Positions 4,763 through 48,714 of a stretch of 64,000 nt of DNA are shown piece by piece. The notes beneath the pieces are model-generated. The model was not told where the DNA came from, ran no database searches, and saw only the letters and a list, made by a program, of their open reading frames with translations. The translations under genes were made by a program, and so were the position numbers. Source of the DNA: Halosolutus amylolyticus (GTDB taxonomy: Archaea > Halobacteriota > Halobacteria > Halobacteriales > Natrialbaceae); NCBI RefSeq assembly GCF_023566055.1, contig NZ_JALIQP010000008.1:124001-188000 (forward strand), in the 5' to 3' direction. The first letter of the stretch is position 1, and each line of letters starts with the position of its first letter.

Positions 4763-5308
4763 ATGGCGGGACCATTCGATGAACCCGAGGGCAACTGGTG
4801 GGACGAACCGGTCAATCGGCGTGAGGCCGCCTGGCTCGGCATCGCGGGGGTGTGGTCACTGGGCATCTTCGGCTGGATGAGCGGCTTCACCCGCTTCGGC
4901 GACCAGAACCCCGTCGGCGAGACGTACGCGGTCGATCCAGACGAGTACCAGGAGACGGTCCAGGAGTACAAGGAAGAAGCCGAAGAGAACGAGGAGGGAC
5001 ACCTCATCCCGCCGGGAGACTCGGTCTACATCGGCGGCGTGCGGTTCAACTGGGACGGCCTCCCGGTGGTCCTCGAAGCGGGCCGGGAGTACGATATCCA
5101 CATGGGCGCCTACGACGTCCAGCACGGCTTCTCGATCCGTCCGGAAGACAACCTGAGCCAGCAGATCAACCTCCAGATCCTCCCGGACACCGAGTGGGTC
5201 GTTCCGATGACCTTCGATGATCCGGGGACGTACCACGTCATCTGCAACGAGTACTGTGGCCAGGGTCACTACAGCATGCACGGCACGCTCTACGTGGAGG
5301 AACCGTAA
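4763..5308 (+). CDS. Heme-copper enzyme subunit II with CuA centre (CbaB-like)
   Basis: A 181-aa subunit II: one N-terminal TM helix (about 22-41) followed by an exposed cupredoxin domain. All CuA ligands are visible: His121 (DVQHGFSI), Cys161 and Cys165 (CNEYC), His169 and Met172 (GHYSMHG), so it can take electrons from a soluble copper or haem carrier and pass them to subunit I. The sequence between helix and cupredoxin is strongly acidic, as expected for a halophile. The stop codon directly abuts the subunit I start. Its short one-helix form is typical of B-type (ba3) enzymes. CuA-containing nitric oxide reductases have the same subunit, so it does not decide the reaction. Confidence 0.88.
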   Translation: MAGPFDEPEGNWWDEPVNRREAAWLGIAGVWSLGIFGWMSGFTRFGDQNPVGETYAVDPDEYQETVQEYKEEAEENEEGHLIPPGDSVYIGGVRFNWDGLPVVLEAGREYDIHMGAYDVQHGFSIRPEDNLSQQINLQILPDTEWVVPMTFDDPGTYHVICNEYCGQGHYSMHGTLYVEEP

Positions 5309-7039
5309 ATGGTATCGACTGTCTCACAGCTGTTCGACAACGACTACGACGACGAAGGGTTCCGGACCTGCTCGGTGACCGGGCTCGAGATCCATCGCTC
5401 GGCCGAGAATCACGTCAAACTCTTCGGACTGACGGCCGTCATCGCGCTCGTCGTCGGTGGATTCTTCGCTATCTCCGTCGCGATGACTCGCTGGGAGGTT
5501 ATCGGGTTGATGGACGAGGCCGACTACTACCGCCACCTCAGTATGCACGCCTGGAACCTCCTCATCTTCTGGCTGGTGTTCATGGAGATCGCCATCCTCT
5601 ACGTCGGCGGCCCGATGGTGCTCGGTCGACGACTGCCGCTGACGACGGTCGCGAAAGCCGGCTGGCTCCTCATGGTCGCCGGTGCCATCGGCGTCAACTA
5701 CTTCATCTGGACGGTGTCCGGAGCCGAGGTGGAACCGCTGCTCACGGCCTACGTCCCCCTGAACGTCCCGACGGGATTCTACGCCAGCGCCGTCGTCTTC
5801 CTGCTCGGAGCGACCGTTGCCGCAGTGCCGTTCTTCGCCACGATCTGGAAGGAGAAGCGCTGGGGGACGAGGAAGACGCTCCCGCTCGCGGCCTTCGGTG
5901 CGTTCGTCACGGGCATCATTGCCGTCCAGGCCATCCTCGGCGGCATCTCCGCCTTCAGTTACGCCCTCGTCTGGAAACTCGGTATCATCGAGACGATCAA
6001 CAGCGGCGCCTATCGGACGCTCTTCTGGACGATCGGTCACGGATCACAGCAGATCAACCTGCTGGCGATGATCACGGTGTGGTACTTCCTGACGCACGTC
6101 GTCGGCGGTGCGGTGGTCGTCAGCGAAAAGGTCTCGCGATCCGCGTTCATTCTCTACCTGTTCTTCATCAACCTCGGAGCGGCCCACCACCTGATGGCGG
6201 ACCCGGCGCTCGGCGTCGGCTGGAAGCTCTTCAACACGTCGTACGCGTTCTACGGTGCGGCGTTCGCGAGCATGATACACGCCTTCGCAATCCCGGCGGG
6301 GCTGGAGGCTGGCCGTCGCCAGCGGGGCCTCGGCGGCGGCCTGTTCGGCTGGCTCACCTCCGCTCCCTGGCGGAATCCAGTCTTCTCTGCGACGATCTTC
6401 AGCATCATCCTGTTCGGGTTCGTCGGCGGTATCACCGGCGTCTTGATGGGCCAACTCCAGCTCAACATGACCTGGCACAACACCTTCGCGACGGTCGGGC
6501 ACTTCCACGCCACCGTCGCAGTGGGGACGACGCTCGCCTTCATGGGGCTGGTCTTCTTCGTCGTTCAGACCATGTTCCGCCGGGACTTCGTCTCCGGTGT
6601 GCTCGCGTCCCTCGTACCGTACTTCTACGCCGGCGCGATGGGCATCGCGACGCTGGTCATGATCTACCTCGGCATCCTCTACGGCGTGCCGCGACGGACC
6701 TCGAGCGTCGTCCGGAACATCCCCGGAGCCGACTTCAGCATCTCCGCGGCCGCACCACTCATGTCCCTCTTCGGCGTGTTCGCCGTCCTGGCGATACTCG
6801 CCGGTGCCCTGTTCATCCTCGTGACGCTCGGGTCGCTGCTGTTCGGTGCCCGCCTCGACACGGGCGAGGACGCCGGCTTGCGTCCCGACGGCGGACTGAA
6901 ACCGGACGGTGGCGAGTCGGTCCACGCCGTCGACATGCGCGGTACCTTCGCCATGTGCCTGATCTTCATGGCGACGTTCGTCGCCCTCTACGTCATCAAC
7001 TGGTTCCTCCTCGTCCAGTTGTGGTCCATCGGCGCTTGA
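5309..7039 (+). CDS. Heme-copper catalytic subunit I (ba3-like; possibly eNOR-type nitric oxide reductase)
   Basis: A 576-aa polytopic protein of the heme-copper superfamily. Haem and copper ligands are visible: His80 in helix II (HLSMHAW), CuB ligands His244 (TIGHGSQQIN) and His293-His294 (AAHHLMADP), and the helix X pair His398/His400 (GHFHATV). Oxygen reductases carry HPxVY in helix VI, where the Tyr is cross-linked to the CuB His; here the equivalent position is Gln248 (HGSQQ), so that Tyr is missing. Loss of this Tyr marks the NO-reducing families, and Gln here fits the eNOR group known from euryarchaea. Homologues are usually annotated cbaA / cytochrome ba3 subunit I. The fold and membrane location are certain, but the reaction (O2 or NO reduction) is not. 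Confidence 0.9.
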   Translation: MVSTVSQLFDNDYDDEGFRTCSVTGLEIHRSAENHVKLFGLTAVIALVVGGFFAISVAMTRWEVIGLMDEADYYRHLSMHAWNLLIFWLVFMEIAILYVGGPMVLGRRLPLTTVAKAGWLLMVAGAIGVNYFIWTVSGAEVEPLLTAYVPLNVPTGFYASAVVFLLGATVAAVPFFATIWKEKRWGTRKTLPLAAFGAFVTGIIAVQAILGGISAFSYALVWKLGIIETINSGAYRTLFWTIGHGSQQINLLAMITVWYFLTHVVGGAVVVSEKVSRSAFILYLFFINLGAAHHLMADPALGVGWKLFNTSYAFYGAAFASMIHAFAIPAGLEAGRRQRGLGGGLFGWLTSAPWRNPVFSATIFSIILFGFVGGITGVLMGQLQLNMTWHNTFATVGHFHATVAVGTTLAFMGLVFFVVQTMFRRDFVSGVLASLVPYFYAGAMGIATLVMIYLGILYGVPRRTSSVVRNIPGADFSISAAAPLMSLFGVFAVLAILAGALFILVTLGSLLFGARLDTGEDAGLRPDGGLKPDGGESVHAVDMRGTFAMCLIFMATFVALYVINWFLLVQLWSIGA

Positions 7040-7109
7040 CTCTCCACTCTGTCCACCATTCGACACCGTCAGACTACCGGTTTCATGCCATCTACGTAAT
7101 ACACCCAAG

Positions 7110-7793
7110 ATGTCAGATCAACGCACTTCGAGGTCGCTTCGATGGTATCTCGGTCGACTGTGGCGCGACCTGTTGAGCGTGTACTACGCCAACACCCCAA
7201 TCTGGAGATGGCTGAAGAGCGGTGCGTTGGTCTTTTTCGGCTTCTTCGCCTGGATGAGCGGCACCGTCCTGTTGTCCGTCCGGCCGGAGTGGGGGTTCCT
7301 CACTTACGTGATGGCGTACGGCTTCCTGTTGCTCTTCTGGGGACCGTTCACGCACTTCGTCGTCGTTCCCGTCTCGATACGGCTCCGACGGACCGCCGAA
7401 CACCCGACCGTGCGGGCGGTGAACCGACACGCGGGCAAGATCAACCTCTCGATCTTCTTCACGCTCGTACTCGTTTTCGGAACGTTCACACCGGGTATCA
7501 TGATGTTCGAGTTCGATCCGGGCCTCGGGGACGGAGAGCAGGACGACGTGCGTGGCACTCTCGTCTGTGACGTAGACGACGACGTCGTCTCCTGTCACGT
7601 CGACGGAGCCCAGGGAATCGACCACGTCGTCGCCACCTCCGGCGGAGAGGTCGTCGCAACTGTCGACGAGCCCCCGTTCGCGTTCGAGGTGCACACGGAC
7701 GAACTCCAGGAAACCAGAACGGGGAACGAACTCGTCGTGGAGTATCGGGACGAGTCCGGAGAGTTGCTCCGTCGTCAGGTCAGAACGTTCTGA
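7110..7793 (+). CDS. CbaE-like fourth subunit of the heme-copper complex
   Basis: A 227-aa membrane protein with three hydrophobic helices (about residues 36-56, 63-83 and 109-129) and a C-terminal extracytoplasmic beta-rich domain containing a Cys pair (LVCDVDDDVVSCHV) that could form a disulphide. It is last in the operon, 70 bp after subunit I, the place of cbaE in the four-gene haloarchaeal ba3 operon. No cofactor ligand set is evident, so a structural or assembly role is likely. Its stop lies 18 bp from the stop of the convergent copper ATPase. Confidence 0.65.
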   Translation: MSDQRTSRSLRWYLGRLWRDLLSVYYANTPIWRWLKSGALVFFGFFAWMSGTVLLSVRPEWGFLTYVMAYGFLLLFWGPFTHFVVVPVSIRLRRTAEHPTVRAVNRHAGKINLSIFFTLVLVFGTFTPGIMMFEFDPGLGDGEQDDVRGTLVCDVDDDVVSCHVDGAQGIDHVVATSGGEVVATVDEPPFAFEVHTDELQETRTGNELVVEYRDESGELLRRQVRTF

Positions 7794-7811: not shown

Positions 7812-10259
7812 TCACCGGATCACGGTCCGTCGCGAGTTGGAGACCACGATGATACTGCTGGCGGCCATCGCCAGCGCAGCGAAGAAGGGATTGATGAGGC
7901 CACCGACGGCGAGTGGGATCGCGACTGCGTTGTAGAGAAACGCCCAGCAGATGTTCTCGCGAATCCGCCGCCGCGTCCCCGTCGCGAGGGCGAAGACGTC
8001 GTCAACCGCCGTGAGATCGCTGTCGGTAACCACGACGTCGGCAGCGTCGGCGGCGCGAGCGGTCCCGTCACCCATCGCGATCCCCAGGTCCGCCGCCGCC
8101 AGCGCCGGCGCGTCGTTCGTGCCGTCGCCGACCATCACCGTCGTTCCGGTCGCGGCGAGGCGGCGGACCGTCTCCACCTTGCCGTCCGGTGGGACGCCCG
8201 CGAACACGCGATCGACGGCCTGATGATCGCGAAACCGTTCCGCGCTCGCCCCGTCGTCCCCGGTGAGCACGGCGACCTCACAGTCTTCGAACGCGTCGAC
8301 CGCGGACTCCCACTCGGCTCGTTCTCGATCCGCTATCGTGACGACGCCGCGGGCCTGGCCGTCCCACCCGACGACGACCGGTAACTCGCCCCGGCGATCG
8401 ACCTCGGCGATGCGAGCGGCGAGTTCCTCGGGGATCGCCCCCACTTCTCGCTCCACGAGGCCCGGCGTCCCGACCACGATCCGGCGCGACCCGACGATCG
8501 CCGAAACACCCTCGCCGGGATGCCGGCTGAACTCTCGCGCGTCGGGCAGTTCACGTACAGCAGCGGTGTCATCCGGAGAGCCGGACGCTCCGTCCGAAAC
8601 GCCGCCGTCAGGTGTCAGCTCCGATTCGCCTTCCGAACCCGGGATAGTCGCGTCCACTATCGCATCCGCGACGGGGTGACTGGCGAACCGCTCGACTGCC
8701 GCCGCAAGCCGCAAGCACTCGCTCGACCCAGTGACGTCGGTCACGCGCATCTCGCCGGCCGTCAGCGTCCCGGTTTTGTCGAAGACGACGACGTCGGCGG
8801 CAGGTGCGGTCTCGAAGACCGACTCGTTCGTGACGACGACGCCCCGCTCGAGTGCGTCACGTAAACCGGCGGAAATCGCGAGCGGCGTCGCCAGTCCCAT
8901 TGCACACGGACACGAGACGACCAGGATCGTCAGGCCGGCGAGCAAGGCGGCAGCGACGGTGCCGCCGGTCAGGAGTTGCCAGAGCGCGACGGTCGTCCCG
9001 AGGACGAGTACCAGCGGGACGAAAATCGTGGCGAGCGCGTCCGCCAGTCGCTGGGCGGCCGGCGACTGGCTCTGGATCTCCCACAGTGCCGACGCGATAC
9101 GGTCGACGGTGCTCTCCGCCTCGGGGCCGACCTCGACGACGAGGGCGTCGTCGGCGACGACCGATCCGCCGACCACCTCGTCACCGGGTGCTTTGGTCAC
9201 CGGCAGCGACTCGCCGGTCAAGACGGACTCGTCGACGTCCGCTACCCCCTCGACGACGGTGCCGTCCACGGGAACGCGTCCTCCGGGCGCGACGACGAGT
9301 CGATCACCCGGCTCAACCGAATCGACGGGGACGGTCTCTCTGCCGTCGGCGGTGAGTCGCGTGGCGTCGCTAACGCGGGCGGTCGTGAGCGTCGAGATGG
9401 CGTCCGTCGCGCGTCGTCGAATCCGATCCTCGTAGTATCGGCCGACCGTGACGACCATGATCACCGCGACGCTGACGTCGTAGTACAGGTGCGTGCTGCC
9501 GGTCGCGAGTGCGACCGTACTGTACGCGTACGCCGACAGCGCCGCGACCGACACGAGCAGGTCCATGTTCGGCTGTCGCGTCTCGATGCTTACCCAGGCA
9601 CCCCTGAGTACGGGAAAGCCGGTATAGAAGAGTACGGCCGACGTGAACAGGCCGATGAACACCATCGGGAGGTAGAGTGTGAGGGGGGTCGTCGTGTCGA
9701 CCGCAATCAGGCCCGTGTCCATACCGAGGTAGCTGGGATAGAGGAAGAAGAAGTACCACGGCATCACGAGCATCGTGAAGAATCCGCCGACGATCAGTCG
9801 CTGGACGGTGTCGCGCTGGCGCTCCCTGGCAGTATCGTCGACCCCAGGCCCGCCGGCGTCGTCACGAAACCGGACCGTGTAGCCGTGCCCCGACAGGAGC
9901 TCCGGGAGGGCGGTCTCGGATACCCGCTCCGGGTCGGAGACGACCCGAGCCATCCCCATCGCGTAGTTGGCGTCCACCGCGTAAATCCCGTCGACGTCGT
10001 CGGCGTGCAGCCCGAGAAACGCCTCGCAAGTCGTACAGTGCATGCCGTCCACGGCGAGATACGTCTCGACCGCGCCGTCCGGGCGTTCACGCTGTCGCGT
10101 GTCCTCGTCGAGCGACCCGGTAGCGGCTCCGGCCGATCGGTCGATCTCGTCGAGTCTCGCGGCGACCTCGCGACAGCCCCGACAGCAGAAGGCCCCGTCG
10201 TCGTCGCCCCGCACGGGCGGGTCGGGCGTGGGGAGGTCACAGAGGTCGCAGGAACTCAT
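7812..10259 (-). CDS. Copper-translocating P1B-type ATPase
   Basis: An 815-aa heavy-metal ATPase. Domain order: an N-terminal Cys-rich metal-binding segment (CDLCDL... FCCRGC, residues about 4-30), an HMA domain (GMHCTTCEAFL), membrane helices, actuator (VLTGESLPVTK), the ion-channel motif Cys450-Pro-Cys452 (CPCAMGLATPLAI), the phosphorylation motif DKTGTLT and the hinge GDGTNDAPALAAADLG. The N-terminal Cys-rich plus HMA layout resembles CcoI/FixI/CtpA-type ATPases, which deliver copper to cuproenzymes rather than only detoxify. It lies tail to tail with the operon whose product needs CuA and CuB, so supplying copper to that enzyme is a reasonable inference. Length and motifs are complete. 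Confidence 0.9.
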   Translation of the reverse strand: MSSCDLCDLPTPDPPVRGDDDGAFCCRGCREVAARLDEIDRSAGAATGSLDEDTRQRERPDGAVETYLAVDGMHCTTCEAFLGLHADDVDGIYAVDANYAMGMARVVSDPERVSETALPELLSGHGYTVRFRDDAGGPGVDDTARERQRDTVQRLIVGGFFTMLVMPWYFFFLYPSYLGMDTGLIAVDTTTPLTLYLPMVFIGLFTSAVLFYTGFPVLRGAWVSIETRQPNMDLLVSVAALSAYAYSTVALATGSTHLYYDVSVAVIMVVTVGRYYEDRIRRRATDAISTLTTARVSDATRLTADGRETVPVDSVEPGDRLVVAPGGRVPVDGTVVEGVADVDESVLTGESLPVTKAPGDEVVGGSVVADDALVVEVGPEAESTVDRIASALWEIQSQSPAAQRLADALATIFVPLVLVLGTTVALWQLLTGGTVAAALLAGLTILVVSCPCAMGLATPLAISAGLRDALERGVVVTNESVFETAPAADVVVFDKTGTLTAGEMRVTDVTGSSECLRLAAAVERFASHPVADAIVDATIPGSEGESELTPDGGVSDGASGSPDDTAAVRELPDAREFSRHPGEGVSAIVGSRRIVVGTPGLVEREVGAIPEELAARIAEVDRRGELPVVVGWDGQARGVVTIADRERAEWESAVDAFEDCEVAVLTGDDGASAERFRDHQAVDRVFAGVPPDGKVETVRRLAATGTTVMVGDGTNDAPALAAADLGIAMGDGTARAADAADVVVTDSDLTAVDDVFALATGTRRRIRENICWAFLYNAVAIPLAVGGLINPFFAALAMAASSIIVVSNSRRTVIR

Positions 10260-10401: not shown

Positions 10402-10896
10402 ATGGTCGGCGATACAGCCGGAGTCTCCGAGGCTTTCGACCCGCGACGGACACGATTGCTTCGGATAGGTGCCGGTGCGCTCGCGGTCCTCGTCGCCTGG
10501 CTCCACATCTTGCACCCGGAGTACGGGTATGAACAACTCCTCCGCTACGTCGAGTTCGGGACGCTGTACGACCCGCGACCACCGCTGTTCGTCCTGTCTG
10601 GACTGGCGATCTTTGCTGGCATCGTCTGCGGTTTCAAGGGTGTTGCGAAACGGCCAGTCTATCTGATCGGCATCGGACTGATCGGTACGTATCTACTCGG
10701 GTACGTCGCCTGGCACACCGTCCTCGATCACGGCGCGTTCTGGCCACACATCGAACCACACCCCCACGAGAATGTAGGACTCGTCGAGTCGATAATCGCC
10801 CACCTCGAGGCCGATACCATCGCGATGGTCAGCAAGGCGGCAGAACTCGTACTGCTTGTTTTCCTCACAGTGCTCTACATCGTCGACGTCGAGTAA
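10402..10896 (+). CDS. Four-helix membrane protein of unknown function
   Basis: A 165-aa protein with four predicted TM helices: about residues 22-37, 58-77, 86-104 and 140-160. Polar loops contain several histidines (LHILHPEYGY, VAWHTVLDHG, PHIEPHPHENVG), which could bind metal or haem, but no known motif was recognised. The ATG at 10402 is preferred over the GTG at 10384 because a TATA-like GTTTAGG (10371-10378) lies about 27 bp before it. It is divergent from the copper ATPase and shares its 142-bp promoter region, so a link to copper or respiration is possible. Confidence 0.6.
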   Translation: MVGDTAGVSEAFDPRRTRLLRIGAGALAVLVAWLHILHPEYGYEQLLRYVEFGTLYDPRPPLFVLSGLAIFAGIVCGFKGVAKRPVYLIGIGLIGTYLLGYVAWHTVLDHGAFWPHIEPHPHENVGLVESIIAHLEADTIAMVSKAAELVLLVFLTVLYIVDVE

Positions 10897-11002
10897 CTCG
10901 TCGAACGGCAGCAGGGATGACTGGCCGCCAGTACGTCCCCGCACGTAGCATCGGACCGCGGACAACTCTTTATACGATCCTCGGCGTGCTTCCAAGCACG
11001 CA

Positions 11003-11329
11003 ATGATCGAACCCGGCCGCATCGTCACGGGACTGTCACAGGGGCGCGTCGTGGAGACGGAGTTAGGTACCGAACCGACCCGTGAAGAGATTCGAGAAGA
11101 GGTATTGCGGTTCAAGCAACAGGGGCTCTGCGGGCGACGGATCGCCGAACAATACCTCGTCCCGTATTTCATCGCGAGTAGCGACTACGGCGATCGAGAG
11201 GTCGACATCCTCGACGACGTACTCGCGGAGGAATACCGAGACCTGGATCTTTGCGTCGACGAGCGAAGTCCAGAGTGCAGTCGCTTTCGTGGCGGTTGTA
11301 AGGAATACCAGTCGGGCTCGAAGAAGTGA
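11003..11329 (+). CDS. Conserved-looking hypothetical protein, 108 aa
   Basis: A soluble, charged protein with no recognised family. The N-terminal half is an EPxREEIREEVLRFKQQG-type helical segment. The C-terminus carries three Cys (LDLCVDERSPECSRFRGGCKEYQ) that could bind metal. It begins at an ATG 28 bp after the TATA-like TTTATAC (10971-10977), with a small GTGCTT/AAGCAC inverted repeat just before the start, so the gene is probably real and leaderless. Copy 1 of the 84-bp palindromic repeat follows 163 bp after its stop. Confidence 0.5.
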   Translation: MIEPGRIVTGLSQGRVVETELGTEPTREEIREEVLRFKQQGLCGRRIAEQYLVPYFIASSDYGDREVDILDDVLAEEYRDLDLCVDERSPECSRFRGGCKEYQSGSKK

Positions 11330-47334: not shown

Positions 47335-47556
47335 CCGGTAGTCCTTGGCGAGTATCGGGGAAAAAAGATACAGAAAGCGGCGAGCGATCCACCCCGATCG
47401 AAGTACGAGTCGGTTGACAGTATCGGACACGCGCCGCCAGTGGGAGGGCCACGCGGCGGCCTTTAAGTGATTCCCGGGAACATGTTCTCGTCCCTTCCCG
47501 GTCCCTAAGAAGTGGCTCGACCCGTTATACATCGGCTATTCTTACGTCGAATCGTT

Positions 47557-48714
47557 ATGAGTGATCGTATCGGCGCTCCTGGACTCGGACTCTCACGACG
47601 TGAATTCGTTGCCGCCACGGGCGGCATCGCGGCAGTAACCGGCCTGGCCGGCTGTACGAGTCAGGGGGCCGTGCAGGACTCCGAGGCGGCGAATTCCGCG
47701 GACGATTCCGACGACTCGGACGAATCCGATCTGCCGTGGACGAGTTCTCCCGAGGTCGTACAGGTCGACGAGCAGGGCGGTAGCGTGACGCTGCGATCGG
47801 TGACGTCCCGGCACGCCGTCCACCCGATGGACTCGATGGGTGGACCGGTGGAACTCCCGCAGGTCTGGGCGTTCCAGGCCGACGACCGCGACCCGAGCGT
47901 TCCGGGGCCGATCCTCCGGACGACCGAGGGCAACGACATCGAGGTCACGCTGGACAACACGGACGCCGATATGCCCCACACGCTCCACTTCCACGGGGCG
48001 AACAAGACCTGGGAGAACGACGGCGTGCCGACGACGACCGGAATCACGGTCGAACCCGGCGAGAAACACACCTACACCATCCCCGCGAACGTTCCGGGGA
48101 CGCACCTCTATCACTGTCACTACCAGACCCATCGCCACATCGACATGGGGATGTACGGCATCTTCCGCGTCGATCCGGAGGGGTACGACCCGGCGGACAA
48201 GGAGTATTTCTTCACCCTCAAGGACTGGGACTCGCGCGTGAACCGGCAGATGGCCGGCGAGGACGTCGACTACAGTCCCCGCCAGCGCAACCCAGACGTG
48301 TTCACGATCAACGGCAAGAGCCTCCCGCGGACGCTCCACCCCGAGGAAGGGTCGCCGATCATCGTCGATCACGGCGACACGGTTCGCCTCCACATGGTCA
48401 ACGCGGGCTACATGTCCCACCCCATGCACACGCACAACCACCGGTTCCGGCTCGTCGAGAAAGACGGCGGCCAGATTCCCGAAGCCGCCCAGTACGAACA
48501 GGACGTGACCAACGTCGCCCCCGCGGAACGCCACACCGTCGAGTTCGAGGCGAACGCCGACCCCGGTATCTACCTCATGCACTGTCACAAGGTCGACCAC
48601 GCGATGAACGGGAACTCCTACCCCGGCGGGATGGTCAACGGCATCGTCTACCGCGACGCGATGGATACCGACGTCTTCGCGGATCTCATGGCCCACGCGG
48701 GCTACGAGGGCTGA
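47557..48714 (+). CDS. Two-domain multicopper oxidase, TAT lipoprotein
   Basis: A 385-aa secreted cuproenzyme. The N-terminus has a twin-arginine lipobox signal (SRREFVAATGGIAAVTGLAGC), so it is exported folded and lipid-anchored at Cys. An acidic Ser/Asp linker follows. Four copper-binding motifs are present: HFHG, HCHYQTHRH, HPMHTHNH and HCHKVDH, matching type 1 and type 2/3 copper sites of two-domain laccase/nitrite-reductase relatives. It probably oxidises phenols, Cu(I) or nitrogen species outside the cell. A TTATACA box 26-33 bp before the ATG supports the start. Confidence 0.88.
   Translation: MSDRIGAPGLGLSRREFVAATGGIAAVTGLAGCTSQGAVQDSEAANSADDSDDSDESDLPWTSSPEVVQVDEQGGSVTLRSVTSRHAVHPMDSMGGPVELPQVWAFQADDRDPSVPGPILRTTEGNDIEVTLDNTDADMPHTLHFHGANKTWENDGVPTTTGITVEPGEKHTYTIPANVPGTHLYHCHYQTHRHIDMGMYGIFRVDPEGYDPADKEYFFTLKDWDSRVNRQMAGEDVDYSPRQRNPDVFTINGKSLPRTLHPEEGSPIIVDHGDTVRLHMVNAGYMSHPMHTHNHRFRLVEKDGGQIPEAAQYEQDVTNVAPAERHTVEFEANADPGIYLMHCHKVDHAMNGNSYPGGMVNGIVYRDAMDTDVFADLMAHAGYEG

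Follow-up and report, generated by a model that had tools for sequence, protein, structure and literature searches.

The window analysed here, 64,000 nucleotides of contig NZ_JALIQP010000008.1 from the haloarchaeon Halosolutus amylolyticus, contains an open reading frame (5309-7039, + strand) for a protein of 576 amino acids plus stop, which was identified as subunit I of a haem-copper oxidoreductase and assigned, on the basis of Pfam and phmmer searches, residues and tree, as the putative catalytic subunit of an eNOR. A Pfam profile search returned PF00115 (COX1) with 160 bits, and the best matches in the PDB (1e-33 or better) were B-type oxidases, mainly cytochrome ba3 of Thermus thermophilus, the next level being reached at 2e-4. 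Since the NCBIfam search of subunit I yielded no specific model (CtaD_CoxA alone, far under its cut-off), the naming of the family rests on residues and tree. All six metal-ligand histidines are kept. By homology to ba3, the low-spin haem would be bound by H80 (5546-5548) and H400 and the high-spin haem by H398, the latter two forming the helix X motif H398-F-H400 (6500-6508). The CuB ligands correspond to H244 in helix VI and to the helix VII pair H293-H294 (6185-6190), which is His in all 87 relatives. In 3 of the 87 Gln-type relatives, the second helix X histidine, which is predicted to ligate the low-spin haem axially, is replaced by lysine (VGHFKGTVV compared to VGHFHATVA); this variant was read directly in a Thermus thermophilus plasmid (L134:9001-10659) and in Bacterium HR23 (L061:6001-7689), and the third case is taken to be another Thermus thermophilus plasmid (L145:9001-10695).

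Directly upstream, at 4763-5308 (+), lies the gene for a membrane-anchored cupredoxin of 181 amino acids with a binuclear CuA site, assigned as subunit II. Its residues 83-180 align with the CuA domain of T. thermophilus ba3 (2cua, 2lln; 6e-14), and every copper ligand is kept: H121 (5123-5125) and C161-x-E163-x-C165-xxx-H169-xx-M172 (5243-5278). A homologous subunit II occupies the same position in related loci. Downstream of subunit I, a gene at 7110-7793 (+) encodes a protein of 227 amino acids with about three transmembrane helices followed by a C-terminal extracytoplasmic domain containing a conserved Cys pair, for which Pfam and NCBIfam searches gave no match. Almost every haloarchaeal eNOR locus, like the members from Rhodothermota and Bacteroidota, has a homologue of this protein 3' of subunit I, and none was found next to the Thermus or proteobacterial members; we consider it a candidate third subunit of eNOR. 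Counterparts were seen at 10544-11263 of locus L102 and, in locus L049, some 1.3 kb 3' of subunit I. The next gene (7812-10259, - strand) encodes, according to profile matches, a P1B-type ATPase for copper translocation, whose N-terminal domain is Cys-rich and which probably supplies copper for the assembly of CuA and CuB. Homologues of this ATPase are close to many eNOR loci and also to 21 of 23 B-type oxidase loci, and its presence thus marks a copper-containing oxidase-like enzyme but not NO reduction. Elsewhere in the window (47512-48714, +), a multicopper-type protein of 400 amino acids was noted that has a signal-like stretch at its N-terminus, contains copper motifs rich in His and matched the NirK model weakly (61 bits, cut-off 296).

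In the phmmer alignment to the ba3 structures, the helix VI motif GHPI-x-YFW of the oxidase corresponds to GHGS-Q-QIN in subunit I, and the segment H244-G-S-Q247-Q248 (6038-6052) therefore combines the CuB ligand with a Gln at the site of the cross-linked Tyr. This replacement and the retention of the remaining haem and CuB ligands, both pointed out in a preliminary description of the locus, were confirmed: Q247, Q248 and N250 are invariant in 87 of 87 distinct relatives, while V, Y and W are found at these sites in 30 distinct B-type relatives, the Tyr itself in 30/30. Because Q247-Q248 is universal among the former and V-Y among the latter, Gln248 is not explained by a sequencing accident or by chance. 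Internal controls are provided by the same genome, in which two B-type oxidases carry the Tyr (GHPVVY, GHSVVY) and a second copy carries the Gln (GHGTQQ). In addition, E93, Y283, Y312 and H324 (window about 5585-6280) are invariant in the 87 eNOR relatives, at sites where B-type enzymes mostly have L, F, N and T, and at the level of sequence their fixation shows a long-standing separate family. Two residues of the ba3 K-type channel, Y259 and S321, are retained in the alignment, the former being invariant in the relatives, and the T312 position is taken by His324. The AlphaFold model of subunit I (pLDDT 79) supports a ba3-like fold and nothing beyond; since its helix X active-site stretch 383-401 has a pLDDT below 50, distances within the site were not used.

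In C-type oxidases we take the cross-linked Tyr to lie in helix VII, six residues ahead of the HH pair, an offset presumed from cbb3 structures. The equivalent residue of subunit I is I287, where 82 of the 87 relatives have Ile and the other 5 Leu, and a move of the Tyr to the C-type helix VII position is excluded by these sequences. The invariant Tyr283 is located in helix VII approximately one helical turn from this position, and may conceivably represent a relocated Tyr of eNOR. The preliminary description had also stated that all oxygen-reducing families keep the Tyr; this needs refinement for the C-family oxidases, in which the cross-linked Tyr sits on a different helix (PMC8780969), and the lack of a Tyr in helix VI is accordingly insufficient by itself.

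A scan of the genome collection identified 53 relatives of subunit I, with identities of 91% in Natrarchaeobius chitinivorans, about 60% in Rhodothermus and Bacteroidota, and 39% in Thioalkalivibrio denitrificans and Sedimenticola. In 391 haloarchaeal genomes, the matches were sharply divided into eNOR, from about 60% identity upwards, and B-type, at no more than 32% (about 28-32%), with a broad interval between the two. In a maximum-likelihood tree of 51 rows, calculated with the Gln column included and without bNOR, sNOR, gNOR, nNOR or cbb3 rows, the Gln-bearing sequences formed an eNOR clade of 36 rows (99/98) apart from the Tyr-bearing B-type enzymes (99/97), and A-type oxidases (100/100) and cNOR/qNOR (100/100) were both separate from it. 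The window protein clustered with the Rhodothermus sequences (60% identity) in a subclade with 100/100 support, and Gln-type relatives span archaea, Rhodothermota, Pseudomonadota and Thermus. The position outside the B-types, together with the Ile or Leu at the C-type site, runs against the counter-reading raised in the preliminary description, a B-type enzyme with its Tyr supplied from another helix.

The eNOR family (Hemp and Gennis 2008) is defined by a Gln at the Tyr site and a cupredoxin subunit II immediately upstream, and members have already been reported from Natronomonas and 'throughout other Halobacteria', often mislabelled as cytochrome c oxidase (PMC8756737); eNOR is ranked among the biochemically characterised NO reductases (PMC11388526). 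The same mislabelling, anticipated for this operon, was found among the named relatives of subunit I, which bear the labels 'b(o/a)3-type cytochrome-c oxidase subunit 1' or 'cbb3-type'. The literature already covers the family, the Gln as its marker, its members in haloarchaea and their misannotation, and the window protein is a further member, which shares with the family the Gln, the CuA-type subunit II directly upstream, the single clade and the common oxidase annotation. It differs in accessory features only, as haloarchaeal and Rhodothermota loci have the conserved third membrane protein and often genes for SCO, redoxin, CcdA-like or blue-copper proteins.

Cytochrome ba3 of T. thermophilus (PDB 1xme, 1ehk) resembles the window enzyme in fold, haem and CuB ligands and the CuA subunit II; since the CuA subunit and the six metal-ligand histidines are common to B-type enzymes and eNOR, they do not discriminate between the two. 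The differences lie in the context of its Tyr237, where V-Y-F-W is replaced by Q-Q-I-N in subunit I, in an identity of about 26-30%, and in the clade. Other NO reductases related to the B-family and equipped with a cupredoxin second subunit are bNOR (the CuA-NOR of Bacillus azotoformans), sNOR and gNOR, all without rows in our tree, in which the Tyr position is Asn (sNOR, CuA-NOR) or Asp (gNOR) (PMC8756737). The haloarchaeal qNOR (NorZ), also a haem-copper superfamily NO reductase and encoded in the same genome (C1:751304), is in contrast a fused single subunit with a Glu at the Tyr position (H-M-W-V-E) and belongs to a distant clade. The pattern of cNOR/qNOR, a Glu at the Tyr position together with FeB and no CuA, is not that of subunit I, which has Gln at this site, is accompanied by CuA and falls into a separate clade. 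The purification of a cytochrome ba3 of Natronomonas pharaonis, cited in PMC8305020, was considered as a potential counter-example; a haloarchaeal locus containing CbaC carries a Tyr enzyme (GHMVVY).

Four Tyr-bearing oxidases (two of the A-type, two of the B-type), a qNOR containing H-x-x-x-E and another eNOR are encoded in the genome of 4.6 Mb. Of the nirK and nos genes that the preliminary description had proposed to look for, two NirK and one NosZ exceeded the curated cut-offs, and the organism carries a pathway from nitrite to nitrogen gas. With 69% identity to the window copy, the other eNOR (C6:111764) is part of a cluster with the order nirK, plastocyanin-type blue copper protein, SCO1/SenC, redoxin, CcdA-like protein, subunit II, subunit I and subunit III; the gene for a P-type ATPase and another nirK lie further on. 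The proteins encoded by the two flanking nirK genes (G000:C6:103001-123000, L102) agree almost completely along most of their sequence, which points to a local duplication. No nirK was found at the locus of the window copy. In its closest orthologue, from Natrarchaeobius chitinivorans (L009, 91%), the genes for CcdA-like, redoxin, SCO and blue-copper proteins and nirK directly follow subunit III, with nirK 5 kb from subunit I in the same operon; this block, from the CcdA-like gene to nirK, is absent from the window locus, where the copper ATPase stands in its place. A 40% relative with the label b(o/a)3-type oxidase is located about 3 kb from nirS on a plasmid of Thermus thermophilus.

A link with nirK was also evident across the haloarchaea. 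Within 7 kb, nirK was present at 19 of 47 eNOR loci compared to 0 of 23 B-type loci, and 28 of the 47 eNOR loci had none in the flank. Among the 391 haloarchaeal genomes, eNOR occurred in 71, nirK in 210 and qNOR in 206; nirK was found in 67 of the 71 genomes with eNOR (4 had no nirK at all) relative to 143 of the 320 without it (odds ratio 21), and in the family of the window organism in 35/35 with eNOR relative to 23/66 without. The association held within genera (Mantel-Haenszel p=4e-6), and eNOR was more common in nirK genomes lacking qNOR (25/57) than in those containing it (42/153; p=0.03), all co-occurrence p-values being approximate given that the genomes are not independent. Both nirK and eNOR without qNOR were thus present in 25 of the 391 genomes.

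Taken together, genes 4763-7793 very probably encode a haloarchaeal eNOR, a NO reductase with CuA whose origin lies on the B-type side of the haem-copper superfamily. That subunit I would reduce NO, as the preliminary description had considered probable for an operon with a CuA subunit, is strongly supported by the Gln next to a full set of ligands, the eNOR clade, the complete CuA subunit at 4763-5308, and the ties to NirK in the genome, in the operons of relatives and in the class. We infer that a small blue-copper protein of the halocyanin type would reduce the CuA of subunit II, from which electrons would pass to the low-spin haem (H80/H400) and on to the high-spin haem (H398) and CuB (H244, H293, H294), where two NO may be coupled to N2O and water; any energy coupling is likewise a matter of inference. 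Gln248 stands where oxidases have the cross-linked Tyr, the electron and proton donor for O-O cleavage. NO reduction involves two electrons and no O-O cleavage, which fits the loss of the Tyr, and the weak NO reduction known for ordinary ba3 oxidases (PMC8780969) indicates that this chemistry is within reach of a ba3-like fold. NirK would be the source of NO, and NosZ could take away the N2O. As the window copy has no adjoining nirK and the genome contains a qNOR able to carry out the NO step, this copy may be redundant or specialised.

The fold, the nearest solved structures, the CuA subunit and copper ATPase shared with oxidases and the invariant Y259 and Y283 would also be compatible with a functional O2 reductase of the B-type (cytochrome ba3) which either lost the cross-linked Tyr or uses Y283 or Y259 instead. 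However, the fixation of Gln in 87/87 relatives from archaea to Thermus indicates a selected trait, the clade is its own and outside the Tyr-bearing B-types, nirK is missing within 7 kb of all 23 B-type loci, and four Tyr-bearing oxidases are already encoded in the same genome, which makes such an oxidase very improbable. A three-subunit eNOR of haloarchaea and Rhodothermota, including the 7110-7793 membrane protein as a hitherto undescribed subunit, in which Tyr283 partly replaces the role of the Tyr and which handles both NO and O2, is very improbable.

It is very improbable that the enzyme uses another substrate, with the Gln as the mark of a non-NOR haem-copper family, given the nirK/nirS context and the subclade shared with Rhodothermus, the source lineage of eNOR biochemistry (the characterised eNOR, from the 2024 PNAS work of Murali and colleagues cited in PMC11388526, is reportedly the Rhodothermus marinus enzyme). 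Assays of NO or O2 consumption by a haloarchaeal eNOR were not found in the literature searched, and alternative eNOR substrates have been allowed for (PMC8756737). That the enzyme reduces both NO and O2, or serves as a NOR for detoxification under oxygen instead of for denitrification, is rather unlikely but deserves more weight: eNOR reduces NO under microoxic conditions (PMC11388526), the qNOR in the genome makes a second role plausible, and the window copy has no adjoining nirK, although the strong nirK linkage of the family, closest orthologue included, argues against it. Such a role and the eNOR assignment are not exclusive, because the physiological function and not the chemistry is at issue.

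While the concept is published, the association of haloarchaeal eNOR with nirK is quantified here. Nitrite is respired to N2O by a bacterium that has NirK and for which an eNOR homologue is the sole NO reductase listed (PMC13274419). In a survey of haloarchaeal denitrification, qNOR (NorZ) was given as the only class of NO reductase (PMC8400030), a statement that fails if eNOR counts as a NOR. Since eNOR genes carry oxidase labels, surveys based on gene names miss probable N2O producers.
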